Positions 6,073 to 60,726 of a stretch of DNA of 64,000 nt are shown here, one piece after another. Within the stretch, counting starts at the first letter, position 1. Each line of letters opens with the position of its first letter. Under the pieces are notes generated by a model. The model was not told the origin of the DNA and did not search any database. It saw only the letters and a list, made by a program, of their open reading frames with translations. The translations under genes and the position numbers were made by a program. Source of the stretch: Alphaproteobacteria bacterium (lineage in GTDB: Bacteria > Pseudomonadota > Alphaproteobacteria > Micavibrionales > Micavibrionaceae); NCBI GenBank assembly GCA_002690045.1, contig NZDE01000010.1, positions 248,001 through 312,000 of the forward strand. The letters run 5' to 3'.

Positions 6073-6699
6073 TTATTTAATAATTGCTACAAACTCTTTA
6101 ACTGCTTGCTTTGTCGCTTGCTGATTTATTTCTTGTAGCAATGCATTAGCCTCTGCTTGTTCCTCGTCTTGTGCAACAGGTGTAGGCAGGGCAACACGAT
6201 CAAGTTTTTTGATCTTTAAGTCTATACGCGCTGCGGTATCAAAAGTTGCACGTTCCGATACGATGCTGAGTAAACCACAGCCGGCGCCACCAACGACCAT
6301 TGCAAATGGGCCGCCTAATGTAACGAAGCCTATCGCGCTGCCTTTAAAGACGGTTGAAGCTATGCTTGCGCCTTTCGCGCCTTCGCTTGCTCGTGTACTT
6401 TTAATTTCGACATCATAACCCTGTGCATTTAACTGGGCGCGATATGTTTTGAAGTCTTCGTTTTGTAAAACTTGCTCTTCTGTTAGGGATGGGACGTGCT
6501 TAACGCCAATATTGGCGCAGCGTTTAAAATATTCACTAAGGCTGTTCGGCACGCCGACATATTGCCGTAAGTTTCCTTGCTTGTTGACGACAGCCTTTTC
6601 GGAAATTTTATTGTTTGCAATAAGGCGGCGAAAAACTTTTGAAATTTCATCATCGGTAATTTTATTTTGCTTATCTAATGCGTCATCAATTGTGGTCAT
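6073..6699 (-). CDS. Unknown protein, paralog of the next gene
   Basis: A 208-aa protein not recognised as a named family. The N-terminal half is charged and helical. There is a central hydrophobic, glycine-rich stretch at about residues 118-147 (GFVTLGGPFAMVVGGAG) and a charged C-terminal helix. It aligns with the protein encoded just upstream (6718-7524): both have an NxLSEYF/NKMSDYF motif, a xL(T/S)xxxVxxNxxFxxYxxxLxxQxYDVxxxST block, then the hydrophobic segment. Only 18 bases separate the two genes, so they are probably one transcript. It may associate with the membrane; function unknown. Confidence 0.72.
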   Translation of the reverse strand: MTTIDDALDKQNKITDDEISKVFRRLIANNKISEKAVVNKQGNLRQYVGVPNSLSEYFKRCANIGVKHVPSLTEEQVLQNEDFKTYRAQLNAQGYDVEIKSTRASEGAKGASIASTVFKGSAIGFVTLGGPFAMVVGGAGCGLLSIVSERATFDTAARIDLKIKKLDRVALPTPVAQDEEQAEANALLQEINQQATKQAVKEFVAIIK

Positions 6700-6717
6700 T
6701 TTATTAATCCCTGTCCG

Positions 6718-7524
6718 TTATTTTATAATTGGCTGTTGGGCGCTTTTCTTATCTTTTGCTGCTGTTTTTAGGCCTGCTTTTTCTTTTGCTTGTGCGTCGT
6801 TAAGTTCGCTTAATAAATTGGACATATCACCTTCTGCAGGGATGTATTCCAAAAGTGGGATAGGTTGTTTCTCTTTGATTTGTAATTCAATTTGTGCGCA
6901 GTTCTGTCTGTTCAATGCGTTTGTACAGCTTGGCGTTGCGCCAAGAAGCATTAGTCCGCCAGCTAATTGTATGGGCGGTAACGGCGTCCAAAGCATAGCT
7001 GCGCCGAGAGCTGTTGCCACGCCAGTTACAGCTTTTCCGTCGTTGAGTTGGTGCGCAGCTTTGGTCGATAGTAGATTTACATCATAATCTTGTTCATCCA
7101 TCAATTTTTGGTATGCCTGAAACGCTTTATTATTTGTAACCATATCTGGGGTTAATTTTTCAATATTTTTAAATCTTAAGCCGCCTATGGATGTGAAGTA
7201 ATCACTCATCTTATTCGCGCCGCCTATGGCAAGGGTCATTTTGCCGTCATTTTTAACAAGCGCATTGACGGATAAATCGAGATCTTGTGCCAGCATATTA
7301 AAAACGTCTGTAATTGCATTATCCGCAATTTTAAGGGCTTTTGCTTCTTTTGCTGCGGCTTTGGCCTTAGCCTTTGCTTCGCGTTTTGGGTTGATTTTCG
7401 CAGCAGCTTTTTCTTGACGCGCGGCAGCTTTTTTTGCAGCTTTTTCTGCTTGCTCAGCTTCTTTGGCTTTGCGTGCTTCTATTTCATGTTGCTTTTCTTT
7501 TAGCTTATCTTTGATATAGGACAT
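6718..7524 (-). CDS. Unknown protein with basic coiled-coil head, paralog of downstream gene
   Basis: A 268-aa protein. About the first 65 residues are a highly charged Lys/Ala/Glu-rich helix, likely a coiled coil, absent from its paralog. The following region shares with the paralog the NKMSDYF motif and the YQKLMDEQDYDVNLLST block. A hydrophobic Gly/Leu/Pro-rich stretch follows at about residues 165-200 (TPLPPIQLAGGLMLLG). The acidic/basic helical C-terminus is like the paralog's. It has a good upstream GGAAG and is the first gene of the pair; the divergent tsaC gene starts 123 bases away. Function not recognised. Confidence 0.72.
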   Translation of the reverse strand: MSYIKDKLKEKQHEIEARKAKEAEQAEKAAKKAAARQEKAAAKINPKREAKAKAKAAAKEAKALKIADNAITDVFNMLAQDLDLSVNALVKNDGKMTLAIGGANKMSDYFTSIGGLRFKNIEKLTPDMVTNNKAFQAYQKLMDEQDYDVNLLSTKAAHQLNDGKAVTGVATALGAAMLWTPLPPIQLAGGLMLLGATPSCTNALNRQNCAQIELQIKEKQPIPLLEYIPAEGDMSNLLSELNDAQAKEKAGLKTAAKDKKSAQQPIIK

Positions 7525-8988: not shown

Positions 8989-10125
8989 ATGCTTGTTGCA
9001 AAAGAGTTGGATGTTAAAAATCACGAAAGTTACCACAACCATGAACGTGTTGTGTATTTCGAGCATGAAGCGGCAGGGTTAAAGGCGATTATTTCGGTAC
9101 ATAATACGAATCTAGGCCCATCATTAGGCGGCTGCCGAATGTATCCGTATGAAACAGAAGAACAAGCATTAACTGATGTACTGCGTTTATCGCGTGGTAT
9201 GACATATAAATCGGCGCTAGCAGGTTTGCCATTAGGTGGTGGAAAGTCTGTGATTATTGGCAACCCGCGCACAGATAAAACGCCTGCTTTATTTGAGGCA
9301 ATGGGTGAGGCTGTTGAATATATGGGCGGCAGCTATGTTACGGCGGAAGATGTTGGTACAGCCGAAGAAAACATGGAATCAATATCCAAAAATACAAAAT
9401 TTGTTGCTGGCTTGCCTTTATCGGTATTACAGCAGCGTGTGCCTAACCCTGTTGGCGGTAACCCATCACCATATACGGCTTTTGGTGTGTTCTGTGGTTT
9501 AAAGGCTGCTGTGAAATATCGTTTAAAGAAAGACACTGTTGCAGGCTTAAAAGTCGGTGTGCAAGGTTTAGGCTCAGTCGGCTATGATTTATGCCGCTTT
9601 TTGGATGAAGAAGGGGCAACATTGTTTGTCTCTGACATCAATAAAGATGTGTTAGAACAGGCTAAGGCAGAGCTTAAGAATGTTCACGTTGTTGGCCTTG
9701 ATGATATTTATGATATGCCTGTTGATGTATATGCCCCATGTGCATTAGGCGCAACAGTGAATGACCAAACGATTGAGCGTTTGAAATGCAGCGTGATAGC
9801 TGGCGCGGCGAATAACCAATTACACCTGCGAAAGCATGACCAAATTTTACACGACAAAGGCATTCTTTATGCGCCTGATTATGTGATTAACTCAGGTGGT
9901 GTAATGTGCGTTGGTTACGAATTTTTCCAACTTACTAAAAACCCGTTTTCTTATGAGTTAAATGAGACGAACCTTAAAAATCATGTTGCTGAGATTGAAA
10001 ATGTAACGATGAAAATTTTCGATTATGCGCATAAACATGGCTTGCCATCTGGTGAAGCTGCGGATCGTTTAGCGGAAGAGATCTTTCTTAGCCCTGACCT
10101 TATTAAAACTGCCGCGAATAGCTAA
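8989..10125 (+). CDS. Leucine/valine/phenylalanine dehydrogenase family
   Basis: NAD-dependent oxidative deamination of a branched-chain or aromatic amino acid to its 2-oxo acid; 378 aa. The N-terminal Glu/Leu/Phe/Val dehydrogenase domain has LGPSLGGCRMYPY and the catalytic lysine in LPLGGGKSVIIGNP. The Rossmann domain has GVQGLGSVGYDL, and GAANNQL and NSGGVMCV follow. Members differ in side-chain preference, so leucine versus valine cannot be settled. AAGGAG is well placed before ATG 8989. It appears monocistronic between a terminator on each side. Confidence 0.92.
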   Translation: MLVAKELDVKNHESYHNHERVVYFEHEAAGLKAIISVHNTNLGPSLGGCRMYPYETEEQALTDVLRLSRGMTYKSALAGLPLGGGKSVIIGNPRTDKTPALFEAMGEAVEYMGGSYVTAEDVGTAEENMESISKNTKFVAGLPLSVLQQRVPNPVGGNPSPYTAFGVFCGLKAAVKYRLKKDTVAGLKVGVQGLGSVGYDLCRFLDEEGATLFVSDINKDVLEQAKAELKNVHVVGLDDIYDMPVDVYAPCALGATVNDQTIERLKCSVIAGAANNQLHLRKHDQILHDKGILYAPDYVINSGGVMCVGYEFFQLTKNPFSYELNETNLKNHVAEIENVTMKIFDYAHKHGLPSGEAADRLAEEIFLSPDLIKTAANS

Positions 10126-10150
10126 GTAATAATATATAGAGATTCTTTTG

Positions 10151-10180
10151 AGCCGCCTGTATGTATTTGTAGGCGGTTTA
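10151..10180 (+). terminator. Probable terminator after the dehydrogenase
   Basis: AGCCGCCT pairs with AGGCGGTT (one G-T pair) around a 12-base loop, followed by TATTTA. The tail is weaker than usual. Confidence 0.55.
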
Positions 10181-10196
10181 TTTATGAAAATACTTA

Positions 10197-10225
10197 TTGA
10201 CATAATGCTATTAATCTTTTATTAA
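10197..10225 (+). promoter_or_regulatory. Sigma-70-like promoter of the six-paralog array
   Basis: TTGACA and TATTAA with a 17-base spacer, about 75 bases before the first array gene. No comparable site is obvious between the later genes, which fits one long transcript. Confidence 0.55.
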
Positions 10226-10297
10226 TACTTCAATTTACTATATGGGCGGAGTCTATCTGCCCTTAAAAAAATGAACATAGGAAATGCGGCAGGTATA

Positions 10298-11167
10298 ATG
10301 AAGAATCTAAAGAAATTATGGCTTAATATATGTGGTGGGTGTGACTTTCTAGTCAGCCGTGCGGCAAAACCATCGACTTGGGTCATTGGCGGTGGGATCG
10401 GCATTGCTTGCGGCGCGTTATTGGGTGTGGGTGTTGCAGCGCTTGAGCAGGATAGCAACGATAAGCTTGATGACATTCGCGAGGATTATCAAGCATGGAA
10501 GGCGGATAACGCGAAATTTGATACGCAAGTTTTTGCTATTGACCCTGCTAATGTATGTGGGATTGATGAGGGGTGGTATTTCGCCGTGAAGGAAAAAAAC
10601 GGTGATTACGCGCTTTATAAAGGCGAAAAAGGTAATTATTACCCGCAGGATAAAGACTTCGCTGAAGATTTTGCTGAAGATTTAAGGGATTGCTTTACGG
10701 CGCTCCGTGCTTTGGATGAGCAGCAGGCTAACTTCGAAATTGATTTTAATGTTGTTGCGTCTCAGGCGCTTCGCTCGGATAACACTCTGGAAGAGGGCGA
10801 TACTGTTATTCGCTACCTTAAGGCTTATCATTCATATTTTGATGGCACTTTACAGCGTCTTGTGAATGAATTTGGCGAAGACGCTGCATTTGAGAAGCTT
10901 GAATCTGTATGGGGTGATGCGCTTGACGCATTTGAAGACGGTGATGCTTTTGAAGCGGCTGATTATCAAGATATCCCTACATATGAATATACGTATCAAG
11001 CTGCTGAATTTCCGCTTGCGCCGATATTCCACTTTGCGGTTATTGGTCTGTTTGCGGGGGGGATTGGCGCAGGGTTCTCTAAAACACCGTCAGCAGATTA
11101 TAAAGACCGCGCAGAAAAACGTGATGAACGCCGCCGTGCGTTAGACGCGAAGCCATTAGATTTTTAA
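10298..11167 (+). CDS. Two-span membrane protein, array member 1 of 6
   Basis: A 289-aa protein of no recognised family. It has a short basic N-terminal helix (MKNLKKLWLN), a glycine-rich membrane span at about residues 28-50, an acidic ectodomain of about 190 residues, a second span, and a charged tail ending RRRALDAKPLDF. By the positive-inside rule both ends face the cytoplasm and the ectodomain the periplasm. The ectodomain has the family's two cysteines (ANVCGIDEG and LRDCFTAL) about 45 residues apart. I chose ATG 10298 because members 2 and 3 start MKALKKAW and MKGLKKAW and AGG lies just upstream; an ATG 27 bases earlier is in frame. Confidence 0.82.
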   Translation: MKNLKKLWLNICGGCDFLVSRAAKPSTWVIGGGIGIACGALLGVGVAALEQDSNDKLDDIREDYQAWKADNAKFDTQVFAIDPANVCGIDEGWYFAVKEKNGDYALYKGEKGNYYPQDKDFAEDFAEDLRDCFTALRALDEQQANFEIDFNVVASQALRSDNTLEEGDTVIRYLKAYHSYFDGTLQRLVNEFGEDAAFEKLESVWGDALDAFEDGDAFEAADYQDIPTYEYTYQAAEFPLAPIFHFAVIGLFAGGIGAGFSKTPSADYKDRAEKRDERRRALDAKPLDF

Positions 11168-11182
11168 GAAGAGGGTAGAAAA

Positions 11183-12028
11183 ATGAAAGCATTAAAAAAG
11201 GCATGGATAAACACGGAAGGTTTTTTTGACTTCTTCCGTTCGCGCTATAACGGTATTGGTGAAATGATCGGTGGCGGAGTTGGCGGCGCGGCTATAGGAT
11301 TCTTTTTTGGTGGTATGGTCGGGCTGATTTATTCCGAAGAGGCAAGTGATAAAGAGGCTTTTATTAATGAAAATATAGAGCCTGAATCTGTTTATTTACA
11401 AGTTGATTTTCCATCTAGCTGCGACATTGATGATGGCTTTGCGTATGTGGCCAAAGGGCCAAACGGTAAACATACACTTTATATAGATGGTGAACCACAG
11501 ACCGAACGTAATTCAAAACGTTTTGTTGAGGATGTAGAGGATTGTATCGCTGATATGAAAGACGATCCGTCAATGCTAGAAACCACAACAATCCGCCTAC
11601 GTTACAACGTGTCGCAGCCAATGCGTACGGTTGACCTTAATGACGAAGATGCGACAGAGAATTTTCGCGTAACACGTAGCAGTGATGATTCAGAAGAAAT
11701 GTCTTTGGTAGAATGGGATAAGCAGCTAGCGGAGCATAAAGACGGCGCTATTGGTGCATTGCAAAGCCTTTGGAAAGGTGCTTTGGCTGATTTTGAAGAT
11801 GGTGATATTTATAACCATATAGAGGCAAAAGACGTCACAACATTGGAATATAAGGATGATTATGCACCATATTATTGGTCAATACCGCTTTATGCTGCGG
11901 CTGGTTTAGGCGCATTCGGTTTCTTTGGTGCAGGTTTTGGCCGTATGCCAGATTCTGAAGCTAGAGCCCGAAAAGAAAACCGCGCCGCGCGTCGTCGCGC
12001 GCTAGATTCTAAGCCGTTAGATTTTTAA
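11183..12028 (+). CDS. Two-span membrane protein, array member 2 of 6
   Basis: A 281-aa paralog of its neighbours. The N-terminus MKALKKAWINTEGFFDFFRSR is nearly the same as member 3. Then come a Gly-rich span, an acidic ectodomain with FPSSCDIDDGF and a second cysteine in VEDCIADM, the hairpin-like KGPNGKHTLY, a second span, and a tail ending RRRALDSKPLDF. It begins 15 bases after member 1 with GAGGG upstream. Role unknown; periplasmic exposure of the acidic, probably disulfide-bonded domain is inferred from charge distribution. Confidence 0.82.
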   Translation: MKALKKAWINTEGFFDFFRSRYNGIGEMIGGGVGGAAIGFFFGGMVGLIYSEEASDKEAFINENIEPESVYLQVDFPSSCDIDDGFAYVAKGPNGKHTLYIDGEPQTERNSKRFVEDVEDCIADMKDDPSMLETTTIRLRYNVSQPMRTVDLNDEDATENFRVTRSSDDSEEMSLVEWDKQLAEHKDGAIGALQSLWKGALADFEDGDIYNHIEAKDVTTLEYKDDYAPYYWSIPLYAAAGLGAFGFFGAGFGRMPDSEARARKENRAARRRALDSKPLDF

Positions 12029-12044
12029 AAAGAGGGTATAAACA

Positions 12045-12893
12045 ATGAAAGGACTAAAAAAAGCATGGATTAACGTAGAGGGGTTCTTTGATTTCTTCCG
12101 TGCACGCTTTAAAGGGGTGGTAGCCACTATTGGAAATACGTTGAGTTCAGCTTTTGGCGGTTTTGTTGTTTTTGGCGCTATAGGCGTTGGGATGTCGACT
12201 GTAAATGACGGTATGGAGCAATTCATTGATGAAAATGCAAAATATCAAGATATGAGTGTGGCTATTGATTTTCCAGGTGATTGCGATGATTTAAGTGGTG
12301 TTTTTCTTGCGGAAAAAGGGCCGAATGGTCGCCATACGCTTTATAAATATGATGGTAATGATGTCTTTGTAGCTCTAAGTGAAGGGGCGAGTGAGGATTT
12401 TGCAGATGAAGCGCGTGAATGTTTTGAACGTGCGGCAAGTGATTCGGAATTGCGTAAAGACTTTACCATGTATGAAGGCTATGGGATTTCACAGCCTTTC
12501 CGCAATGTGAATACCGAAGATGCTGGAGATACATTTGATTACCGTGCTTTACAAAGAGGCGGCGATGGACATAGTTTTGAGGATTGGGCGGTAACTTTTC
12601 CGAATGAACAGGCTGCGCTAGAAGGGCTCGTCAATCGTTGGACGCCGCCGCTTAATGATTTTGAGAAAGAGCAGATTTATGATCATAAAAAAGCGGATGA
12701 TGTTAAGACGTTCACATATACCGATACATACCAACCATATAATTATAATTGGATAAAATTTGGTGTGATTGCAGGCGCGTCATACGGGTTATTGATGAGC
12801 TTCGCTGGCGGTATCAGCGCAGCGGGGCGCGAACGTAAAGAAAACCGCGCCGCACGCCGCCGCGCATTAGATGCACAGAATTTGGATTTTTAG
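12045..12893 (+). CDS. Two-span membrane protein, array member 3 of 6
   Basis: A 282-aa paralog closest to member 2: MKGLKKAWINVEGFFDFF at the start, FPGDCDDLSG and ARECFERA for the cysteine pair, KGPNGRHTLY for the hairpin, and a tail KENRAARRRALDAQNLDF. Sixteen bases separate it from member 2, with GAGGG before the start. Members 1-3 share the RRRALD tail and form one subgroup. Confidence 0.82.
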   Translation: MKGLKKAWINVEGFFDFFRARFKGVVATIGNTLSSAFGGFVVFGAIGVGMSTVNDGMEQFIDENAKYQDMSVAIDFPGDCDDLSGVFLAEKGPNGRHTLYKYDGNDVFVALSEGASEDFADEARECFERAASDSELRKDFTMYEGYGISQPFRNVNTEDAGDTFDYRALQRGGDGHSFEDWAVTFPNEQAALEGLVNRWTPPLNDFEKEQIYDHKKADDVKTFTYTDTYQPYNYNWIKFGVIAGASYGLLMSFAGGISAAGRERKENRAARRRALDAQNLDF

Positions 12894-12905
12894 GAGTAAA
12901 TAGGT

Positions 12906-13835
12906 ATGAATAAATTAAAAATTATGGGTCTAAAGACGATTGGCGCCGTTGATTATTATGCGTCATCGCTTAGGAATAACTCTTTTCTCGCCGTTGCAAT
13001 GTCTGTGGCGATGGGCTGTTTGTTTACCTTGATGTCTGCGGGGTTTACAGCTGTTGTTAAGGAGATAAACCTTAAAGATGCTGCAGACGATTTAGAAAAT
13101 GTTACGACGCGCCAGGATGGTTTTGTTTACGGTTTTCCATCAAGTTGTGACATGGATTATGATTATTATCTTATTGCTAAAGATAATGAGGGTGAGTGGT
13201 CGCTTAGCGCGGGTGATAATCTTTCCATAGTTGATGTTTTGCCGGTAGATGAGCAGCAGGATCAATATGATGATGTAAAAAATTGCGTCGCACATATGGT
13301 CGATTGGGCAAAGAATGATAAGTTCAGCTTCGCTGAAGAATTTAAATATGCGGGGAATGTAACATATTCCGCGCCAATTATTATTCATGATATTAACAGC
13401 GATGAAAACACGCTGCGTATTGATGTTATAGATGGCGTGCCTTTTGGTGAGACGTCTAAAATGCGCTTGGATAAAATTGTTGCGGCCCATGATGATTATG
13501 AAGAAGAAGGCGATAACACAGCCATTTATAAAGGTGAATTTTCAAAGGCTGCAACTGGCTTTATTGAATATATGGATGACCACCAAGACGATGAAATATA
13601 TTTCAAAGGCGAACAGATTAAAAATGCCAATCGTCACCCTGTTTATGAATATGACAGTATGACATTTAAAGACATATTATGGTTTGGTGGAGGAAGTCTG
13701 TCGTTAAGTTTCTTGTTCGTTGCAGGGCCAATGACGTCATATCGCGGCAGCGCTTATGATGCGCGCGCGGAAAAGCGCAACGCGCGCATCGGTGAGCTGA
13801 ACGCGTTAAGCGGACGTGATAAGCCGCTAATGTAA
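12906..13835 (+). CDS. Two-span membrane protein, array member 4 of 6
   Basis: A 309-aa paralog that opens the second subgroup (members 4-6). The start is MNKLKIMGLKTIGAVDYY; the first span lies at about residues 27-50. The ectodomain has FPSSCDMDYDYYLIAK and VKNCVAHM, then WAKNDKFSFAEEFKYA, a block shared with members 5 and 6. After a second span the tail reads AEKRNARIGELNAL and ends DKPLM. It starts 12 bases after member 3, so co-transcription is likely. Confidence 0.82.
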   Translation: MNKLKIMGLKTIGAVDYYASSLRNNSFLAVAMSVAMGCLFTLMSAGFTAVVKEINLKDAADDLENVTTRQDGFVYGFPSSCDMDYDYYLIAKDNEGEWSLSAGDNLSIVDVLPVDEQQDQYDDVKNCVAHMVDWAKNDKFSFAEEFKYAGNVTYSAPIIIHDINSDENTLRIDVIDGVPFGETSKMRLDKIVAAHDDYEEEGDNTAIYKGEFSKAATGFIEYMDDHQDDEIYFKGEQIKNANRHPVYEYDSMTFKDILWFGGGSLSLSFLFVAGPMTSYRGSAYDARAEKRNARIGELNALSGRDKPLM

Positions 13836-13862
13836 TACAAGGATTTTAAGGGAGTAGGGTAG

Positions 13863-14783
13863 ATGAACATCAGAAAAAATTGGTTAAAATGTGTTGGCGC
13901 GGTGGATTATGTGTTCACGGGCCTCACAAAAGACCTAGGTGATAATGTTGCGAAGGTTGGGATAGCGTCAGCAATAGGTGGAATAGTGTTTACTATTGCT
14001 GCGACAATTACGGCCCAGAACTATGCGCAAGATTTTTCCGAAGATTTGGATACAGGTGATTTGGCTGTCCAAGATGGCGGCGCACAGTTTGGTTTTCCTG
14101 AAGACTGTGGAGTCGGCGAGGGGTATTATCTATTCTCAAAGAATCCGAATGGCGGCTATGAGCTAAGTTACTCATATTCCAATGAATGGTCGAATGTACG
14201 TAGCGAACAAGACCAAAAGAAAATGTTAGATAATGCCAATGAATGCATGGACACAATTAAAGGCTGGGCGAAAAAAAATAATTATAAATTTGCTGATGAA
14301 TTTTCTTATCTAGCTGATGTCGAATACACAGATGTTGGCCTTGTTTATGAAACAGATACAAAGGTCTCATCTCTCTATAAGGATGTTATTGGTGATGATA
14401 TTGAAACTATGAGTGAAGTCATAAAAGAGTATGACGAATATGATGTCTCTGGCAGTAATATCAAGCTTTATAAAGCTGAATTTAATAAAGCGGTAGAGGC
14501 TTGGGATTATTATACTGATCGCTTTAATCCAGATGTTGAGTATTATGATTCTGACGGCAACATAAAATACGCGAACCAATATGCACGCTATGAATACGAT
14601 GACCAGTTTAATTCATCGTCATGGTTTTTCTATTCCTGTTTAGCAGGCGGCCTAATGCTGTGTGGCATTGGGCTTTCATCAAGTACCTATCGTGGCGCAG
14701 GTTATTATGAACGTAAAGAAAAACGCGACCAGAGAATCGCTGAACTAAGCGTTATGGATGGCCGTAGCGGCCCATTGATGTAG
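13863..14783 (+). CDS. Two-span membrane protein, array member 5 of 6
   Basis: A 306-aa paralog closest to member 4: MNIRKNWLKCVGAVDYV at the start, FPEDCGVGEGYYLFSK and ANECMDTI for the cysteine pair, WAKKNNYKFADEFSYLADVEYT, then YARYEYDD just before the second span, and a tail KRDQRIAELSVMDGRSGPLM. It carries extra cysteines in the second span (SCLAGG, LCGIG). Gap to member 4 is 27 bases, with GGGAG upstream. Confidence 0.82.
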   Translation: MNIRKNWLKCVGAVDYVFTGLTKDLGDNVAKVGIASAIGGIVFTIAATITAQNYAQDFSEDLDTGDLAVQDGGAQFGFPEDCGVGEGYYLFSKNPNGGYELSYSYSNEWSNVRSEQDQKKMLDNANECMDTIKGWAKKNNYKFADEFSYLADVEYTDVGLVYETDTKVSSLYKDVIGDDIETMSEVIKEYDEYDVSGSNIKLYKAEFNKAVEAWDYYTDRFNPDVEYYDSDGNIKYANQYARYEYDDQFNSSSWFFYSCLAGGLMLCGIGLSSSTYRGAGYYERKEKRDQRIAELSVMDGRSGPLM

Positions 14784-14822
14784 GCGTAACAAAAATAGAG
14801 ATAAACATAGGAAAAATATCAA

Positions 14823-15737
14823 ATGGGTATGAAATCAGCGTTAATACGGACAACAGGTGTTTTAGACGCGATAGGATCTAGCTTAGGCCTGATTTTTAAA
14901 GCTGATGTTCTAATAGGGTTTTATTTGGGGGCTCTGGCTGCTGCGGGGGGGACTAGCCTATATATGGCTTATGACCAAGGTCCTATCAATGATCTTAATG
15001 ATTATGTCGATGGTGCGCTACCAGTGGGCTATGATGGCGCTTTGATGCAATTTCCAGATGTTTGCGGCCTTGATGATGATGTTTATTTGCTGTCGAAAAA
15101 ACCGGGCGGTGGTTATGAAGTGAGTGTCGGGAATGGTAATTATGCCCGCGTTATCCCGCAAGATGAGCAAGATGATCTGGTTAAGGAAATGTCAGATTGT
15201 ATGCAGACAATAAATAAATGGGCATCCAAAGACAATTTTGAATTTACAGATGAATTTAAATTTGCGGCAAATGTCGAACATACCCAGGCAGGCCTTGTTT
15301 ATGACCTGAATGATGAAACTTATACATTGTATAAAGATGTTAGCCTAGAAGATGACCTTGAGACTATGCAATCCGTTGTTAAGGATTTGGATGCATATGA
15401 TAGTAAAAATGATAATATACAGTTGTATCGAGACCAATTCGCTGTCGCTGCTGCTGCGTGGAAGAGTTTTGAGAAAAACTATGCAATATCTGAGCGTTAT
15501 TTCGACAGCGCTGGACAAATTAAAGATAAGGCAAGTTATGCGCGCTATGATCATGATAGCGCCACGCTTGTAGATAAGTTGACTGTAACGTTCGGCAGTG
15601 CTTATTTAGGGCTTATGTTTGCTGGATTTATGAATAATCGTGGGCTTGGCACGGGATATAGGGGCCGCGCAGAGAAACGAAAAGAAGAACTAGAGAAGCT
15701 GGATATTTTAAAAGGGCGCGACGTGCCGAAGTTTTAA
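14823..15737 (+). CDS. Two-span membrane protein, array member 6 of 6
   Basis: A 304-aa paralog closest to member 5: FPDVCGLDDDVYLLSK and MSDCMQTINKWASKD, FADE/FTDEFKFAANVEHTQAGLVYD, YARYDHD before the second span, and a tail AEKRKEELEKLDILKGRDVPKF. The N-terminus lacks the strong basic patch of the others (MGMKSALIRTTG). A second in-frame ATG lies six bases in. It ends the array; only eight bases separate it from the convergent YjbH-like gene, and no clear terminator was seen between them. Confidence 0.82.
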   Translation: MGMKSALIRTTGVLDAIGSSLGLIFKADVLIGFYLGALAAAGGTSLYMAYDQGPINDLNDYVDGALPVGYDGALMQFPDVCGLDDDVYLLSKKPGGGYEVSVGNGNYARVIPQDEQDDLVKEMSDCMQTINKWASKDNFEFTDEFKFAANVEHTQAGLVYDLNDETYTLYKDVSLEDDLETMQSVVKDLDAYDSKNDNIQLYRDQFAVAAAAWKSFEKNYAISERYFDSAGQIKDKASYARYDHDSATLVDKLTVTFGSAYLGLMFAGFMNNRGLGTGYRGRAEKRKEELEKLDILKGRDVPKF

Positions 15738-30706: not shown

Positions 30707-30735
30707 TTGACATAAGTTGCGGCTTGAGGTATATT
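30707..30735 (+). promoter_or_regulatory. Near-consensus promoter for the small gene at 30765
   Basis: TTGACA and TATATT with a 17-base spacer, beginning directly after the erpA stop. Predicted start of transcription is about 30742. Confidence 0.65.
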
Positions 30736-30764
30736 CCACAAAAATCTAATTAACGGTGGTAATA

Positions 30765-30998
30765 ATGATGAAGAAGTTTAAGTTGGTGGATAATCCTTTA
30801 GGGTTTCATAGTGTAGAAATTAACCCCAAACATTTTGCATCAGTGCATTTTAATACAGCAGTAGGCACAGCTAATGTCGAGCTGTGTAATGGTGCGGTCG
30901 CTAAATTCTATGATGATGGCGATTTTAAAGATAATGGCCTAGAACGAAAGTCAGTAACTATGGAAGTTTATGGTACGCGTGCTGATTTTATAGTTTGA
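30765..30998 (+). CDS. Small unknown protein, own promoter and terminator
   Basis: A 77-aa protein (from ATG 30765; GTG 30756 is also in frame) of no known family, with several aromatic and beta-prone stretches (FKLVDNPLGFHSVEI, ASVHFNTAVGTANVEL, VTMEVYGTRADFIV) and one cysteine. A near-consensus promoter sits right before it and a good terminator right after it, so it looks like an independent, well expressed unit. Confidence 0.65.
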   Translation: MMKKFKLVDNPLGFHSVEINPKHFASVHFNTAVGTANVELCNGAVAKFYDDGDFKDNGLERKSVTMEVYGTRADFIV

Positions 30999-31958: not shown

Positions 31959-32951
31959 ATGACTTTCAATATATTTTCTAAACGAATCAAAACTTTATCT
32001 GCTGTGTGCGTGAGCGTTATTGCGCTTGCAGGCTTAAATGCCTGTGAGTCTACGACCGTTCATTTAAAAGAAAGACAGCTTAACCGCATCGCGCTGCCGG
32101 TCTTTATGATTAAGCGTGATATTGCGATAGAAGGCGCTAATCTCGTTGCATTTGAGCGTGTGCATGATCCGCTTAAAGTTGTTCAGGTTTATATTGAAGA
32201 TGATTCAAGCGCGGGTGACCGTATTAAACATACGGCTATAAACAGTAAAGACCCATCAGACCCATTAGCGCTTCGCTTGGCTGCGCAGGATAAAAACACG
32301 AATGTTGTTTATCTCTCTGCGCCATGTTCTTATTTGCGCGATACAATGTTTGCGGAAGGGCCAGCGAATAAATGTGCTAAACATTATTACAGCGATGGCC
32401 CCGTTTCACAGAATGTGATTAATGCTTATGGCGCGGCGCTGGATAATATTCGCCGTTATCACGATGTAGACAGTTTTGTGCTTAATGGTTATGGCAGCGG
32501 CGCATCCGTTGCGGCTATATTGGCATCTCAGCGTATGGATGTAGACGGTTTGCGTACAGTATCCGGCCGTTTAGATGCGTCTGATTATAAAGAAGGTTTG
32601 AGTGCTTATTACGAAGGTGGGCTGAACCCTGTTGATTATGCAGGCACATTGGCGCATTTGCCGCAATATCACTTTATTGGCGAGGATGATAAAGCGGATA
32701 TGATTAAGCTTTATCACAATTTTGCGCAGGCTGTGGGGCCAAGCTGGTGTATGCGTCATAGCTTAATTCCAGATGCAAATGATGACCGTGGTTGGGTTGA
32801 GCAATGGTCTGATTTGGTCGCGTTGCCATTGGATTGTCATGCGAATAAGCAAAATGGCAAACTTGCACCAGAGGTTGATTTGACCCCTGTACCGTTTAAT
32901 CCTAAAACGCTTGATATAATGGATGATATGCATGGTAAAGGGAAAAAGTAA
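31959..32951 (+). CDS. Lipoprotein of alpha/beta-hydrolase type, likely inactive
   Basis: A 330-aa probable lipoprotein (signal peptide ending LNAC, Cys29). It aligns with the next gene over most of its length: DPLALRLAAQD, NVVYLSAPCSY, HYY..GPVSQNVINAY, HLPQYHFIGEDDK and RGWVEQWSDLVALPLDC. At the nucleophile elbow it reads NGYGSGAS, with Gly179 where the paralog has serine, and Asp275 stands where the paralog has the catalytic histidine. It therefore looks like a pseudoenzyme. The C-terminal 30 residues extend beyond the paralog. The downstream gene overlaps its end. Confidence 0.78.
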   Translation: MTFNIFSKRIKTLSAVCVSVIALAGLNACESTTVHLKERQLNRIALPVFMIKRDIAIEGANLVAFERVHDPLKVVQVYIEDDSSAGDRIKHTAINSKDPSDPLALRLAAQDKNTNVVYLSAPCSYLRDTMFAEGPANKCAKHYYSDGPVSQNVINAYGAALDNIRRYHDVDSFVLNGYGSGASVAAILASQRMDVDGLRTVSGRLDASDYKEGLSAYYEGGLNPVDYAGTLAHLPQYHFIGEDDKADMIKLYHNFAQAVGPSWCMRHSLIPDANDDRGWVEQWSDLVALPLDCHANKQNGKLAPEVDLTPVPFNPKTLDIMDDMHGKGKK

Positions 32952-33828
32952 TCTACCTTTCGCTATAAAAAAGACCATGGACGCTGTGAAGGCGTCCATA
33001 TCTTTTTGTGGCTGTCTGTTATTGCTTGCGGGCTGCGGCGCATCGCTTTCTGCCCGTAATGATTTGGCTAATGAATTGGCGGCGCAATCATCTTTGCGTA
33101 AAGAGATCCACTACGCCGCGCCGTTTTATGTGACGGCCTATGCCGATGTGCTGCGCGGGGCGAAAACAGGGCGTGTCTATATAGAAGGGGACGGCCTTGC
33201 ATGGGTAAGTAAATCAGAACCATCTTTAAATCCTACGCCGATTGACCCATATGCGCTGCGTTTAGCGGAAGCTGACCATGCACGCAATATAGACCGTGTT
33301 TATCTGGCACGCCCATGTCAATATTCAGGATGGGATGGCGGCGGCCTATGCCCGCATAAATATTGGACATCTCACCGTTATGCGCCTGAAGTGGTTGATG
33401 CCTATGTTGCCTTGCTTGATAAATTAAAGCAGCAGCGTGGCTGGAGCGATATAGAGCTTGTCGGGTATTCAGGTGGGGCGACATTGGCGTTATTAATTGC
33501 ACGTAGACGGGGGGATATAACGGCCATACGTACGGTCGCAGGGAATGTAGATATTGATGCGCATTCGCGTTTTCATAAGGTTAGCTTAATGCCACAATCA
33601 CTTAACCCCGCAAATTATAGTGATGATCTTTCGCGCTATCCACAGATTCATTTTGTGGGCGGGGATGACCGAATAGTGCCCATCAATATAGCCCAGAGCT
33701 ATGCGCATCAGATGCAAGATTCATCTTGTGTACGCATAAATGAAATTGCTGGTTTAGCGCATGGAAAAGGGTGGGTTGAAAAATGGCCTGACTTGCTGCG
33801 CCAGCCAATATCATGTAAAAGCCAATAA
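32932..33828 (+). CDS. Lipoprotein alpha/beta-hydrolase, apparently intact
   Basis: A 298-aa lipoprotein; the lipobox is LLAGC. The hydrolase core is complete: VGYSGGAT holds the nucleophile (Ser180), HFVGGDDRIVP the acid, and GLAHGKGW the histidine (His277). Substrate unknown; an esterase or lipase-like reaction in the periplasm or outer-membrane inner leaflet is inference. The start could be ATG 32932 (GGA nearby, overlapping the previous gene by 20 bases) or ATG 32977, which gives a shorter signal peptide. Confidence 0.8.
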   Translation: MVKGKSNLPFAIKKTMDAVKASISFCGCLLLLAGCGASLSARNDLANELAAQSSLRKEIHYAAPFYVTAYADVLRGAKTGRVYIEGDGLAWVSKSEPSLNPTPIDPYALRLAEADHARNIDRVYLARPCQYSGWDGGGLCPHKYWTSHRYAPEVVDAYVALLDKLKQQRGWSDIELVGYSGGATLALLIARRRGDITAIRTVAGNVDIDAHSRFHKVSLMPQSLNPANYSDDLSRYPQIHFVGGDDRIVPINIAQSYAHQMQDSSCVRINEIAGLAHGKGWVEKWPDLLRQPISCKSQ

Positions 33829-34721: not shown

Positions 34722-37700
34722 ATGAAACTCGACATTAAAAAACTACTCCTCGCGGGTACAGCTATTGTTGCAGTTGGTGCAGCGCCAATGGTTATTTCAT
34801 CAGCATACGCGGCTGACGAAATTTCTGTTGATGCTGATGATAGCGGCGTATTTGATGCTGACGAACTTGCAACATCAGCATTTGACTGGGGCGCTGTAAC
34901 AGATGGTACTGCAGCAGCTGGTGAAGTGACAGACAGCCATGATGTGCGTGTGAACGCAACGGCTGAGATTACTTTGGAAGATGGCGACACAATTGGTGAC
35001 GGTGATGCGACAATCGCAGCTGTAGTTGCTGGTGCTGATGCGCTAACTTTGACATTGACTGATGCATCTGCTGATGCACCTGCGGCTATTACAATTGATG
35101 GCGCGATTTCAGTTGGTGCGTTTACTTCTCTTAACTTGGCTGTCGATGGTATTGACGACGCTGATGGTAATGACGCGCTTGATATCACAGTTAACGGCGC
35201 TGTTAACCTAGGTACAGGTACATTGACACTAACAGCTGATAATGACACAGCTGGTAACGATCTTACTTTCGCCGTAACTGGTAACATTACTGCAGGTCAA
35301 ATCACTCTTGATGATAACGCAGCTGGTTCTGATGCAGTTCTTGAATTGAACGGCACAACAGCGCAAACAGTTACAGCGGCAATTGACGGCGCGGCTGCGG
35401 CTGAAGGTAACATCAAAGTTGGAAACACAGCAGGTGTTACATTCGTTGGTGATATCGGTACTACAAACTTCACAGTTGATAGCATTAATGTTGGTGTTGA
35501 TGGTTCATCAACTGTTACAGCAACTTTCCAAGGTGATGTTGCAACAGCGAATGGTATCGTTATTGGTGATACAGATGCTGCGGCAACTGTTGACGCGGTA
35601 ACAGTGACATTTGATTCACAAAATGGTTCAATCTCAGTCGCTGGTGATGTTGATGCAAACGCAACTGACACGGCTAACGTTGTAATTACAGGTGGTAACA
35701 CTGTTGCTGCAGCAGATAACTGGGGCTCATCAAATGCATTGGGCACAGTAAGTGTTACAACTTCAGGCACAATATTTGATCTTGAAGGTACTTTGGATGC
35801 TACAACATTGACATCTGCTACAGGCACAACAATTGACGTTGGCGCTGGTACAGTAACTGCAGCAGTAACAAACGCTGGTACATTGTTAATGTCTGGTGCA
35901 GGTGATGTTGTTGGTAACATTACTAACACAGGTACAATTCAACAAACAGGTACTGGCGCAATCACAGGTGATGTTTCTGGCGCAGGTACAATTGACGTTG
36001 ATGCTGACTTGACAGTAACAGGTGACTTGGGCGCAACTTCTGCTGATGTTGCAACGGGTCAAACTTTGACTGTTGCAGGTGGTGCGGGTAACGATATCGC
36101 TGTTTCTACAATCACATTGAACGGTACAGGTGCTTTAGACTTTACTGGTGGTTCTAACCTTACTGGTAACGTTGTTGCAGCTGCTGACGGCGACGGTGCG
36201 ATTAATATTGGTGATGCTGCTGCTACAACAGCAATCGCTGGTAACATCGGTACAAGTTCAGCCGCTGTTGCGACATTAGACATCGCAGGTGGTTCTGCTA
36301 ACGTTGTAACAACAACGGGTAACTTATGGGTAGACGCGATTACAGCTAACAACGCAGATACACTAAGCTTTATTGGTACATCTGCACAAGCTGTTTCTGG
36401 CACAATCACTGGCGGTGACATCAATGTTACTAACGCAACAGGCGTTACTTTCAATGGTGTGATCAATTCTGATGCAATGACTGTTGCGTCTGGTGCTGCT
36501 GCGACTTTTGCTGCAAACGCAACATTCGCTGGTGCATTGGATAGTGCTGGTGCAGTAACAGTTGGTCAAGGCTCTACTTTGACAGCTGCAAGCTTCACAG
36601 ATAACGGCGGTACATTTGTGCTTAACGTTGTTGATGCTGATGCTACATTAACTACAGCTGACATCGGTCTTTTAGACTTAGGTGGTGCGGCAACAGTTGA
36701 TACTGATGACCTTACTGTTAACGTAACAGGTGTTATTGGTACAGGTACTGTTGATGTGTTAGCAAATGGTGGTGATGCATTTGATGAAGCAAAAGCAGTT
36801 GTAGACAACTCTGCGCTTTATACTTTCACAGCAGCTACTGATGGTACGTTGACTGTTGCGCAAGCATCTACAGCAAGCATTACAAACAATGCAGCTAAGA
36901 AATCTACAGCAGACAACTTGCTTGCAACAACTGCAACAGGTGAATTGCTACAGGTTCAGAACGCGTTTGTATCTGCAGGTTCTGCAGACGTGAACAACGT
37001 TCTTGAAGCTGCGGCTTCTGACGTATCTGCGGGCGCAGTTGTTGGTGGTGTTCAGGTTGCTGGTCACACAACATCTGTAAACAACCAGCGTCTTGCTGCT
37101 GTTCGTTCTGGTGAAGAAACTGGTATGAGCGCAGGTCAGATGATGAGCGGTCTGAAAGCTTGGATCCAAGGTTTCGGCGCGACTGGTGAACAAGATGAGC
37201 GCGACAACGTATCAGGTTACGATGTTGACTCAGTTGGTTTCGCAGTTGGTTTGGATGCTGAAAACGTTGCTGAAGACCTAACTGTTGGTGTGTCTGTTGC
37301 TTACGCAAACACAGATGTTGAATCTGATGCGATCAGCAATGCAGAAACTGAAATTGATAGCTACCAAATCGCTCTATATGGTGATTATGACCTATCAAAC
37401 ACAGCGTTCATCACAGCACAGCTAGCTTATATGTGGTCTGACAACGAAACAACACGTAACCCAGGCGGCGTTTCAAGTCTAGTCGCAAATGGTGATTATG
37501 ACAGTGATACATTCATCGCGAATGCAACACTTGGCAATGATTACCACATGGGTCACGGTAGCCTTGTTCTGACACCATCTGTTTCTGCGAACTATGTGCA
37601 CTACAGTGCGGATAGCTACACAGAAACTGGCGCAGGTACAGCGAACCTATCTGTTAACTCTGACTCAATGAACATTTTCGAACTTGGCCTTGGCGTCAAC

Positions 37701-37991
37701 GCAGAATGGTCATTTGAACAAGCTAATGGTTCATGGTTCAAGCCATCTGTAGGTGTGGGCGTACGTCATGACCTTATTGGTGATGAATACCAAGCAACGA
37801 ACCAGTTTGCTGGCTCTACAACAAGTTTCGAAGTTGAAGGTTATGATCCTGCACAAACAACATTTGATGCGGGTGTAGGCTTCAAATACTACACAACTGA
37901 TAGCTGGACAATCAGCGCAGACTATAACTACGAGTTCAAGTCTGACTTTGATTCACACGCTGGTGTAGTTAAAGCTTCTTACAAGTTCTAA
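34722..37991 (+). CDS. Autotransporter with beta-solenoid passenger (copy 1)
   Basis: A 1089-aa type V secretion protein. Signal peptide to residue 30 (SAYA|ADE). The mature protein opens with an EF-hand-like loop, Asp37, Asp39, Ser41, Gly42, Asp45, Glu48. The passenger (to about 800) is built of Gly/Thr/Ala/Asp-rich strands typical of beta-solenoids. The C-terminal barrel (about 807-1089) starts GLKAWIQGFG and ends ASYKF with terminal Phe. AAGGAG lies ten bases before the start. The first ~300 residues are about 90 % the same as copy 2; the middle differs. Cell-surface adhesion or an S-layer-like coat are possible roles. Confidence 0.9.
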   Translation: MKLDIKKLLLAGTAIVAVGAAPMVISSAYAADEISVDADDSGVFDADELATSAFDWGAVTDGTAAAGEVTDSHDVRVNATAEITLEDGDTIGDGDATIAAVVAGADALTLTLTDASADAPAAITIDGAISVGAFTSLNLAVDGIDDADGNDALDITVNGAVNLGTGTLTLTADNDTAGNDLTFAVTGNITAGQITLDDNAAGSDAVLELNGTTAQTVTAAIDGAAAAEGNIKVGNTAGVTFVGDIGTTNFTVDSINVGVDGSSTVTATFQGDVATANGIVIGDTDAAATVDAVTVTFDSQNGSISVAGDVDANATDTANVVITGGNTVAAADNWGSSNALGTVSVTTSGTIFDLEGTLDATTLTSATGTTIDVGAGTVTAAVTNAGTLLMSGAGDVVGNITNTGTIQQTGTGAITGDVSGAGTIDVDADLTVTGDLGATSADVATGQTLTVAGGAGNDIAVSTITLNGTGALDFTGGSNLTGNVVAAADGDGAINIGDAAATTAIAGNIGTSSAAVATLDIAGGSANVVTTTGNLWVDAITANNADTLSFIGTSAQAVSGTITGGDINVTNATGVTFNGVINSDAMTVASGAAATFAANATFAGALDSAGAVTVGQGSTLTAASFTDNGGTFVLNVVDADATLTTADIGLLDLGGAATVDTDDLTVNVTGVIGTGTVDVLANGGDAFDEAKAVVDNSALYTFTAATDGTLTVAQASTASITNNAAKKSTADNLLATTATGELLQVQNAFVSAGSADVNNVLEAAASDVSAGAVVGGVQVAGHTTSVNNQRLAAVRSGEETGMSAGQMMSGLKAWIQGFGATGEQDERDNVSGYDVDSVGFAVGLDAENVAEDLTVGVSVAYANTDVESDAISNAETEIDSYQIALYGDYDLSNTAFITAQLAYMWSDNETTRNPGGVSSLVANGDYDSDTFIANATLGNDYHMGHGSLVLTPSVSANYVHYSADSYTETGAGTANLSVNSDSMNIFELGLGVNAEWSFEQANGSWFKPSVGVGVRHDLIGDEYQATNQFAGSTTSFEVEGYDPAQTTFDAGVGFKYYTTDSWTISADYNYEFKSDFDSHAGVVKASYKF

Positions 37992-38012
37992 TCACTGATT
38001 AGATAGTTCTCG

Positions 38013-38050
38013 AAACCGGGCGTAGAGCAATCTGCGCCCGGTTTTGCTTT
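38013..38050 (+). terminator. Terminator between the two autotransporters
   Basis: AAACCGGGCG pairs with CGCCCGGTTT around a 12-base loop, followed by TGCTTT. It suggests the two autotransporters are transcribed separately. Confidence 0.8.
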
Positions 38051-38064
38051 GGGGGGCTTTTATA

Positions 38065-38095
38065 ATTTTGTTTCATATGATATTCTAAACAAAAT
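38065..38095. promoter_or_regulatory. Inverted repeat upstream of the second autotransporter
   Basis: ATTTTGTTT (38065-38073) and AAACAAAAT (38087-38095) are perfect nine-base arms around 13 bases, 46 bases before the start codon. Placement suits an operator. Confidence 0.45.
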
Positions 38096-38140
38096 CGTTT
38101 CTAGGTTTCTTTCCCCTTTAGTCCATTCGGAGCTTACATT

Positions 38141-41100
38141 ATGACATTGAATCTTAAAAAGCTGCTTCTTGCAGGTACAGCAATTGTTGCGGTTGGCGCA
38201 GCGCCTTTTGTAATTTCACCAGCATATGCGGCTGAACTTTCTGTTGACGCGGATGACAGTGGCACATTTGACGCGGATGAATTAGCCGTTTCGCCATTTG
38301 ATTGGGGCGCAGTAACAAACGGCGCAGGTGCGGCCGGTGAAGCGACAGATAGTCATGATGTGCGCGTGAACGCAACTGCTGAAATCACGCTTGAGGATGG
38401 CGATACAATCGGTGATGGTGGTTCGACTATTGCAGCTATATTGGCTGGTGCGGATGCACTTACATTGACATTGACTGACGCATCTGCTGATGCGCCTGCG
38501 GCAATTACAATCGATGGCGACATTTCAGTTGGCGCGTTTACATCTTTCAACCTTAATGTTGATGGTATTGATGATGCGGATGGTAACGACGCTTTGGATA
38601 TCACAGTTAACGGTGCAGTTAATCTAGGCACTGGCACATTGACACTGACTGCGGATAATAACACAGCGGGTAACGACCTTACTTTTGCAGTAACAGGTAA
38701 TATTGCAGCGGGTCAAATTACACTTGATGACAACGCAGCAGGTTCTGATGCGGTTCTTGAATTGAACGGCACAACAGCGCAAACAATTACAGCGGCAATT
38801 GATGGCGCTGCTGCGGCTGAAGGTAACATCAAAGTTGGCAACACAGCCGGCGTCACTTTCGCAGGTGATATTGGTACAACAAACTTCACCGTCGACAGCA
38901 TTAACATTGGTGTTGATGGTTCTTCTACGGTGACAGCAACTTTCCAAGGTGATGTTGCAACAGCAAATGGCATCGTGATTGGTGACCTAGATGCTGCAGC
39001 AACTGTTGATGCGGTTACAGTAACGTTTGATACAACTGGTGGTGCACAGGCCGTAACAGGTGCGGTAGATTCAAATGGCACAGATAGTGCAAACGTGATC
39101 GTTTCTGGTGGTTCTGTTCTTACAGCCAATGATAACTGGGGTGCGGTTAATGCGTTTAATTCTGTTACATTGTCTGGTTCAGGTACAGGCTTGACGCATG
39201 CAGGCGCTCTTAGAGCGACCACAGTTACTGTTGGTGCAGGTACTACATTGACATCTAGCGGTGACATAACAGCTACAGCTGTTAATTTCACAGGCGCTGG
39301 TACTGTTGCTCTTCAGAATGGTATTACTATCAATGGTGATGTTGATAATACATCAGGTACAGCTGGCGTTGGTACGTTAACGGGCACAGGTGCAGGCACA
39401 AATACTGTAACTGGTAACGTGGGTGCAACAAATTCTCTTGGTACAATTTCTCACGATGGTACAGGGACTTTCCAGTTTAATGGTACAGTTGCTGCGACAA
39501 CAATTTCGACAAGCAGCACAACAACATATGATTTTGCTGATAGCGTTGTTGCAAACTTTAACTTTGGCGGTGATGGTGCAATTGAGCTTGCTGATGGTGC
39601 AAACTTTACAGGCGCGATTAACAACACATCAGGTGCCGATGGTGCGGGTAATTTATCTTTGGAATCTGCGGGTGGTAACACATCAACAATTTCAGGTGCA
39701 ATTGGTGCGACAAACACATTGAATACAATTTCTATAGATGGCACAGGTACTTCAGCTTTTGGGTCTACAGTTGCGGTTGATGATATTGACTTCACTGCGG
39801 CAGGTACAATCAACTTTGCGGGTGATGTAACAACAACAAACGACATCGACTTTGCAAACAATGCTGGTACGATCAACTTTGCAGATAATGCAGATTTAAC
39901 AGGATCAATTGACAGTACTGGCGGTGCAAATGGTACCGTGAACTTTGCTGGCACGTCGAGCGTATCAGGCACAATTGGTATTACAACGAACGAGCTTGCA
40001 GCAATTAACTTTAATGGCGGGGCAGGTGAAACTGTAACGCTGGCAGATAATGTCGCGGCAACGGATATTAAAATTGCTGGCGTGGGCACAGTTCAGGCAA
40101 ATGGCAATATCACAGGTGCGGTAGACTTCGATGCGGACGGTGTACTTCGCTTAGCTGATGGCGGTGACATTACAGGTGCAATTATTACGTCGACACTTGG
40201 TGAAGGTAGTTTAATTCTTCAAGGAAATGCCGATATTGATGCATTCGGTACAGATGGTACAGAGCTTAAAGCCTTTACAGTTCTGGGGACAGGTAGCACG
40301 GTTGGCCTCGCAGGTAACTTTGAAGCGGCCAATACGACAAATATTGACGGCAACATTGTTAACGCTACAGGCACATTTGATGCTGATACAGGTCAGGTCT
40401 TGAATTTTGATGTTACAGGTGCAACTGCAGCAGGTCAGATTACAGCAGGCGGCGCGGCAACAATTGCTGCGGATGCTGTACTAAGCATTGATGTTTCGAC
40501 TGGCGATGCTATTGCTGACGGTCAGAGCTTTGTTCTTGTTGATGGTACAGGCGGTGCAGGTATCGCTGACCTGACAACGACCATCACAGATAACAGTTTC
40601 TTGGTTAGCTTTGCACAAGATACAACAAACGATGAAGACCTTGTTGTGACGGCAAATGTATCAACGACTGCAAGTGCAGGTACAACAACAAACAACACTG
40701 CAGTAGGTGCGGTGTTGGACGGTGTTGGTACGTCTGGTAATACACAACTAGCTTTAATTCAGCAGAATATTGCGGCAGCGTCTACACAGAAAGCGGTGAA
40801 CGACATTTTAGAATCGACACAGCCAACTGTGGATGCGGGGAGTGTTGCGTCAGTTGTTAGTGTAACAAACCAGTCGTTGAATGTTCTTAGTACACGTCTT
40901 GCGTCGCTTCGTGATGGTAGTGAAGGCACAGGCATGTATGCAGGTAACGGCATGTATGGCACAAAGGTTTGGGCACAGGCATTTGGTAACACGATGGAAC
41001 AAGATGCACGTGACGGCATCGATGGTTATGATGCGAGCACGCTTGGTCTTGCCTTCGGTATTGATACAGCTGATCGCCTTGAAGGGATGACACTAGGCTT

Positions 41101-60516: not shown

Positions 60517-60726
60517 ATTTCCCCTACCAAAATACTCAATTAGTGTGTTGCATCGAAATATATTGGAATTATTTAATATACAGATTCTAATGCAGAGTCA
60601 AGCACAATATTATGAAAATCAAATATATTTTTCTATTTTACTTGAAACTAGTATTTACAATATGTTGTAGCTACGCCGTTTTTCATATTATTTCACAATC
60701 TTAATTGCAAAGGCGTAAAATCAAGG

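Follow-up and report, generated by a model that had tools for sequence, protein, structure and literature searches.

Several described systems resemble, each in some feature, the genes reported here. Wzz-type polysaccharide co-polymerases have two inner-membrane spans around a periplasmic domain, immunity-gene repertoires against secreted toxins consist of tandem, fast-diverging paralogues with turnover, and the proton-activated chloride channel PAC/TMEM206/ASOR has two spans, both ends inside and one outer domain. We analysed a stretch of 64,000 nucleotides (64 kb, hereafter the window) from a bacterium of a Micavibrio-like genus; Micavibrio we take to belong to the Micavibrionaceae, Micavibrionales, within the Alphaproteobacteria. 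According to the open reading frame (ORF) calls, positions 10298-15737 of the window hold an array of six co-directional homologous genes on the + strand. Their products are two-span proteins with a predicted periplasmic domain, as in the Wzz type; like the members of immunity repertoires they are tandem, fast-diverging paralogues with turnover; and they share with PAC/TMEM206 the two spans, the inward ends and the single outer domain, deduced in our case from hydropathy and charge.

Our tentative interpretation is that the array is a lineage-specific, open repertoire of periplasm-facing inner-membrane binding modules. The six genes would be transcribed together from a dedicated promoter, and each product would keep its N terminus and tail in the cytoplasm and an acidic, disulfide-paired alpha/beta domain in the periplasm. 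Each copy would show a different binding surface to a periplasmic partner, which might be a component of the envelope or a protein, either of foreign origin or the cell's own, and the spans, through the small-residue motifs of span 1, would allow association of like or mixed copies. Members would be gained and lost, the copies not being fixed parts of one machine. The binding, the diversity of partners and the biological purpose (envelope protection or recognition) are guesses. A recognition set, one of the two roles suggested in the original prediction, is compatible with the fast divergence and the turnover described below.

A two-span protein family found in one genus

The array is formed by copies 1 (10298..11167, 289 amino acids (aa), type A1), 2 (11183..12028, 281 aa, type A2) and 3 (12045..12893, 282 aa, type A3), which make up group A, and by copies 4 (12906..13835, 309 aa), 5 (13863..14783, 306 aa) and 6 (14823..15737, 304 aa), which make up group B. 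All of them are on the + strand and the gaps between them are, in order, 15, 16, 12, 27 and 39 bases, so the six adjacent genes of 281-309 aa with gaps of 12-39 bases that had been proposed are confirmed by the coordinates. Copy 1 has an alternative upstream ATG at 10271, which would give 298 aa; the alignments of its relatives begin at 10298.

The copies follow one layout, namely a short helix containing G and D at the N terminus, span 1, an acidic domain with two cysteines, span 2 and a basic tail. Two hydrophobic segments and two cysteines in the intervening domain were found in all six of them, and thus the common layout described in the original prediction (two spans, acidic two-cysteine ectodomain, charged tail) holds for the whole array. 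The acidic character is clear in residues 61-240, with 35-42 D+E against 14-17 K+R per copy. Basic flanks of membrane spans stay cytoplasmic (the positive-inside rule). Since positive residues precede span 1 and follow span 2 in the six copies (2-6 and 7-10 K+R, respectively), we infer that both ends are cytoplasmic and the cysteine domain periplasmic. The two cysteines are the only well-conserved columns that are identical in all 17 family sequences; because of this invariance and of the predicted periplasmic location, a disulfide between them is probable. The C-termini end in LDF in copies 1-3 and in PLM or PKF in copies 4-6. We also observed that the cytoplasmic tail of complete A and B copies (for instance, window 11969-12028) has a hydrophobic last residue, and that the tail arginines R284 and R288 are each kept in 15 of 16 family sequences. 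This tail may be a docking site for a cytoplasmic partner. A sensor kinase or chemoreceptor was considered and discarded, as only the basic tail of about 30 residues, with no output domain, follows span 2.

A family-profile search found the family in the three genomes of the genus (3/3), with no convincing match in the rest of the 104 genomes of the taxonomic family, in 142 genomes of the order, in a sample of 385 genomes of the class or in a sample of 398 genomes of the phylum; these sets overlap and at most 5-6 candidates were scored per genome. Homologs occurring as scattered single genes were not found in any convincing form among the 104 family genomes. When E values up to 1 were admitted, the profile also had weak matches in 15 genomes of other genera, and five of these loci were read. 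Three (L032, L034 and L040) encode ABC permeases of 414-430 aa beside an ABC ATPase, which we take to be LolC/E-like and which are matched only near their first span, and the other two (L037 and L041) hold unrelated ORFs. A class-wide match in G220 was discarded too, its reading frame being interrupted by four stops.

The profile libraries gave no name to the family. The six copies had no match above the cut-off in Pfam (best E 0.13) or NCBIfam (best E 0.013), and at E up to 0.1 Pfam returned for 16 family members two families, matched by one member each (best E 0.057). PHROGs gave weak matches only, to families that differ from copy to copy (E 0.0066 and 0.015 for copy 4, 0.0083 for copy 5). 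A sequence search of the PDB gave no significant match to the family, a tblastn search with copy 5 against 50,697 phage records gave none at all, and tblastn with copies 2 and 5 found no relatives among plasmids. Copy 5 had none in viral contigs either, in a scan sensitive to close relatives only. No RNA element reached its gathering threshold between 8500 and 18500. A literature search on lineage-specific tandem inner-membrane protein arrays returned work on a ciliate only.

Regarding the structure, copy 5 was modelled at full length with AlphaFold (11 sequences), giving block means of the predicted local distance difference test (pLDDT) of 89-96 for residues 71-150 and 93-96 for residues 181-220, and a mean of 76.4; the five models had means of 76.4, 72.2, 71.8, 65.0 and 46.0. 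The ectodomain of copy 2, from group A, reached a mean pLDDT of 84.6 (79.7-84.6 among five models) and a predicted template modelling score of 0.77. Compared by order of elements and not by superposition, both models show a helix, 3-4 strands, a long helix with the second cysteine, a short helix, 3-4 strands, helices and a strand. In Foldseek searches of the PDB neither model had a match with E at or below 0.001 (best 0.051 and 0.10), and BFVD gave none (best 0.10). The ectodomain, with no significant match to a named family in the profile libraries or structures searched, has possibly a new fold in these models, although absence from the Foldseek and VIA lists is no proof of it. The family thus stands as the undescribed two-span envelope family that had been proposed.

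The main rival to a repertoire of binding modules is a hetero-oligomeric two-span assembly of variable make-up, a scaffold or gated pore in which the spans would pack through small residues and the ectodomains would form a periplasmic ring; we regard it as possible but doubtful. The copies share one layout and are probably on one transcript. The span-1 region carries 3-8 small-xxx-small motifs per copy, and GxxxG occurs in 11 of the 17 sequences, these being counts without a shuffled control. Furthermore, the two-span PAC/TMEM206 channels head the VIA list for the whole copy 5 model, with a Z of 6.5 over 59 residues at a root-mean-square deviation of 3.4. However, the 55-65 residues that align with these channels lie mostly in the spans, a Z below 8 is common by chance, and the ectodomain alone gives no such match, its best Z being 2.9 and PAC/TMEM206 being absent from its list. 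The difference in type sets among species, described in the next section, also speaks against any obligatory set of subunits.

Turnover and divergence of the copies

Pairwise identities are 31-37% within group A and 30-34% within group B, beyond chance in both cases, and about 20-27% between the groups. The best cross-group pair scored 42 bits against a maximum of 24.6 bits for shuffled copies (1800 comparisons), whereas the pairs w1-w4, w3-w4 and w3-w6 were near the shuffled level. The homology of the two groups is based, therefore, on the better-scoring pairs together with the shared columns. Accordingly, the low but clear similarity reported earlier stands within the groups and is not clear for some of the cross-group pairs.

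In a tree of 17 copies we distinguished a type 0, group A with types A1, A2 and A3, group B with the w4 type and the w5/w6 type, and the long-branched copy c2; 5 of the 14 inner forks are open and the placement of c2 is unsure. The genome to which the window belongs (G000) has six copies, that is, A1, A2, A3 and three B copies, and type 0 was not found in it. The second species of the genus (G001) also has six, namely type 0, A1, A2, A3 and two w4-type copies, and the w5/w6 type was not found. In the third (G002) at least five copies lie side by side on a single contig, namely type 0, one A1-like copy, c2 and two of the w5/w6 type, and types A2, A3 and w4 were not seen in the contig stretch available. 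The type-0 copy, which is more divergent, leads the two sister arrays (L024:11697-12587 and L026:3-887), in G001 with its own copy of the promoter. Several types are older in the tree than the split of G000 and G001, which agrees with the earlier idea that the copies are old and retained. Nevertheless, the hetero-oligomeric complex of fixed make-up that had been suggested with it is not supported: since the type sets differ among the three species, an obligatory six-part complex is disfavoured.

Array genes diverge fast. Between G000 and G001, identity in four orthologue pairs of the array is 42-63% and nonsynonymous divergence (dN) 0.29-0.49; for the flanking YjbH, dehydrogenase, SUA5-type and GlpD genes the values are 80-90% and 0.08-0.14. 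Synonymous divergence (dS) is 1.7-2.6 in the array pairs and 1.1-2.0 in the four flanking genes, dN being well below dS in the array pairs. A nearby diguanylate cyclase keeps 83% identity in its periplasmic part, and one orphan is 78% identical.

Tandem, fast-diverging, membrane-anchored periplasmic domains with turnover would fit an immunity repertoire, and a self-protective role would fall within the reading as binding modules, as one form of it. Each copy would bind and block a single toxin or wall enzyme active in the periplasm, which could come from outside or from this possibly predatory lineage itself. We consider such a role unlikely, because none of the genes next to the array was recognised as a toxin, the neighbours being metabolic or YjbH, VipB (type VI sheath) was found in none of the three genus genomes, one of them 85% complete, and a PADLOC-DB search at E up to 0.1 gave matches for none of the six copies.

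Some observations weigh against the interpretation of the array as a repertoire. The family is carried by three genomes only, among those searched, and the spans of copy 5 were modelled at low confidence (block means of 55-61). The view of the sister arrays is incomplete, as the G002 contig begins within its first copy; in G001 a gene spans a contig break with an 8-base overlap, so the copy count there could be too low. Gene conversion or cassette exchange among the copies is not supported as a general process, the identity of paralogues at third codon positions being mostly equal to or lower than that of orthologues; yet in one stretch of 30 codons copies 2 and 3 are 63% identical at third positions against 46% for the copy-2 orthologues, and local gene conversion is possible there. 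Fast divergence is not peculiar to the array, because one secreted protein (43% identity) and one orphan (44%) of the same stretch diverge to the same extent. Weak constraint is then an alternative to diversifying selection, and saturation of dS in the array pairs is too strong for a usable selection test.

Taken to its end, weak constraint would make the copies fast-drifting orphans under weak selection with no concerted role. The equal divergence of nearby lineage-specific proteins fits it, and so does the recurrence of sets of orphan paralogs behind the same promoter, which is described below. However, no internal stop was found in any matched copy of the three species, the cysteines are invariant, the two tail arginines are almost always kept and dN is well below dS. 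We regard drift of this kind as very improbable.

Genomic setting and transcription of the array

The left neighbour of the array is an ELFV (Glu/Leu/Phe/Val) dehydrogenase (8989..10125, + strand, Pfam PF00208 and PF02812), and the right neighbour is a convergent YjbH gene (PF06082, 15746..17890, - strand, Pfam E 2e-104) that lies 8 bases from the end of the array; we place both outside the system. G001 has the same two flanks, with a contig break inside the array, and in G002 the YjbH flank is seen and the left one falls past the contig end. We examined 20 YjbH loci of other genera. In six of them the dehydrogenase abuts or overlaps the convergent YjbH with nothing in between, in L094 one unrelated gene separates the two, and in the remaining 13 there is no dehydrogenase within 5 kb. 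Since other genera have the junction without the array, the simplest explanation is that the ancestor of the genus acquired the array at this point.

YjbH was found in 90 of 103 family genomes and the array in 3 of 104. A conserved linkage of the two was discarded, as YjbH is widespread without the array and the junction is array-free elsewhere. This bears on a further explanation, in which the array proteins would be accessories of an envelope polysaccharide pathway with YjbH, acting as co-polymerase-like regulators. The two-span layout with a periplasmic domain is like that of chain-length regulators, and YjbH is very close. Nevertheless, YjbH is convergent and outside the operon, the array is not tied to a polysaccharide operon and is restricted to one genus, and none of the 16 members had a Wzz-type match with E at or below 0.1. 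Wzz-type structures were not among the fold matches listed, which excludes nothing. We consider this explanation very improbable.

Between the dehydrogenase and the array there is a terminator-like hairpin (10149..10180, + strand) with 13 pairs and a U-rich 3' side. Its folding z-score is -5.4 and none of 200 shuffles was equally stable; a simple terminator scan did not list it, and its counterpart behind the dehydrogenase of G001 stands out less from shuffled sequences (z -2.1). The hairpin would separate the array from transcription of the dehydrogenase. The array promoter follows at 10197..10225 (+ strand) and has the form TTGACATAAT-N13-TAT(TAA), with TTGACA at 10197 and, 17 bases further, TATTAA at 10220. 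A simple promoter scanner missed it, the last base of the -10 element not being T. The near-consensus promoter noted earlier ahead of the first gene is thus present, and its site is conserved in both other species. Actually, an identical TTGACATAAT with TAT 13 bases on precedes the first A-type gene in the three species as well as the type-0 gene of G001, although three of these four upstream regions are orthologous and hence they are not four independent cases. Because of the short gaps, the promoter and the terminator-like hairpin, we infer that the six genes are one transcription unit.

A promoter form that precedes orphan genes

The form TTGACATAAT-N13-TAT occurs at 13 exact sites in G000 (L108-L120), against one site for the reversed pattern. 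Among 58 genomes, including G000, 43 have it, with 197 sites against 5 reversed-pattern sites, three of which are in G046, a genome without a true site. In G000 the mechanically chosen reading frame starts 31-76 bases past the first base of the site, and the assigned start of the array is 101 bases on. In 458 kb (the window, the 20 YjbH loci and the sister arrays) we found 8 TTGACA-N17-TAT-like sites. Four of them precede array genes, and the remaining ones are a TAAG variant and three without TAAT. The variant site, TTGACATAAG-N13-TAT (window 30707-30997), precedes an orphan of 80 aa at 30756-30997.

None of the 12 first proteins behind the other G000 sites matched Pfam at E up to 0.01 (three of them are cut at the locus end), whereas 14 of 20 randomly drawn ORFs of the window did (Fisher p = 1.1e-4). 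This control is small, from one window and unmatched for operon position. It was drawn from 46 window ORFs of 95-500 aa, a pool without the array and without the two orphans at 6073-7524, all of them Pfam-less. For other genomes (relatives, L121-L146) the set had 26 loci, of which 25 contained an ORF; 20 of these, from 20 genomes, were scanned and three first proteins matched Pfam (DnaJ, a weak RNase H and ankyrin). With Pfam's own cut-off, 3 of the 14 control matches and one of these three are lost, leaving 11/20 and 2/20. It is fairly well supported by these sequence comparisons that the promoter form marks, across the order, genes mostly without a Pfam match. A literature search on the TTGACATAAT 10-mer brought up nothing on this bacterial group in the portions of text that were accessible.

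Tandem orphan paralogs recur behind the promoter. In G000 there are, apart from the array, 3 x 95 aa (L150), 2 x about 690 aa (L153), 2 x about 125 aa (L158), 2 x about 135 aa (L159) and 3 x about 600 aa (L161). G001 has three copies orthologous to the 95-aa set (L190) and a pair in L192 that matches over 51 residues only and fails the size-matched definition used below, and G002 has pairs in L194 and L197, the latter not adjacent. Beyond the genus we found 5 x about 142 aa (L165, in G051, of another family of the order) and 3 x 256-371 aa (L178, in G040). The 7 kb loci in which paralogs were sought covered all 12 other G000 sites, all 6 other G002 sites, 4 of the 11 G001 sites and part of those elsewhere.

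The enrichment was evaluated under several definitions, and the p values are uncorrected across them. Requiring a paralog pair inside 1.5 kb gave 7 positives among 39 promoter units, the array included, and 1 among 199 control starts (p = 1.4e-5); without the array and L146 there were 5 among 37 units (p = 4e-4). Against 13/147 controls, a loose definition (7 kb, first two ORFs) gave 6/13 in G000 (p = 0.0013, or 0.005 without the array) and 2/28 outside it (p = 1.0); one combination, of about 700 and 130 aa, accounts for 10 of these 13 control pairs, and we ourselves recognise it as presumably a kinase and a response regulator. For the first two ORFs at 60% coverage, G000 without the array had 5/12 against 2/27 window controls (p = 0.02), and other genera 1/28 against 0/137 (p = 0.17). 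Finally, for a size-matched pair in the first four ORFs, the genus without the array had 8/22 against 2/25 window controls (p = 0.03), and other genera 2/38 against 0/137 (p = 0.046). The enrichment is suggestive and depends on the definition; it is modest because the window itself is rich in tandem paralogs.

Other such pairs of the window are tandem orphan paralogs of 208 and 268 aa (6073-7524, - strand), 27% identical and without a Pfam match, for which relatives were found within the genus and in one further genus (two genomes), and the adjacent pairs at 31959-33825 (330 and 301 aa, 30% identical), 59272-61998 (423 and 415 aa, 31%) and 34722-41803 (1089 and 1221 aa, about 59% over part of their length).

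We take Micavibrio aeruginosavorus to belong to the same order as this genus. It is an obligate predator, and RNA sequencing data of its attack and attachment phases have been published (PMC3189940); the word 'paralog' is absent from the main text of that paper, as far as this text was available. Of the tandem sets that we found behind the promoter form, the array is the largest. There is a small chance that this form switches on an orphan programme of the order, made up of scattered operons of lineage-specific proteins, many of them tandem paralog sets, and that the programme is an undescribed, rapidly diversifying interaction system, for example for contact with prey, rivals or phages.

In the collections searched, no sequence relatives of the array family were recognised beyond a single genus, and the ectodomain may hold a new fold. 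Whether tandem orphan arrays of this kind are repertoires or machines becomes a directly testable question. The promoter form, in turn, is a handle on orphan operons that homology cannot annotate, so that a putative orphan programme could be listed by promoter in this order. The wider set of promoter-linked orphan operons, to which the array belongs, is a more interesting lead than the array alone.

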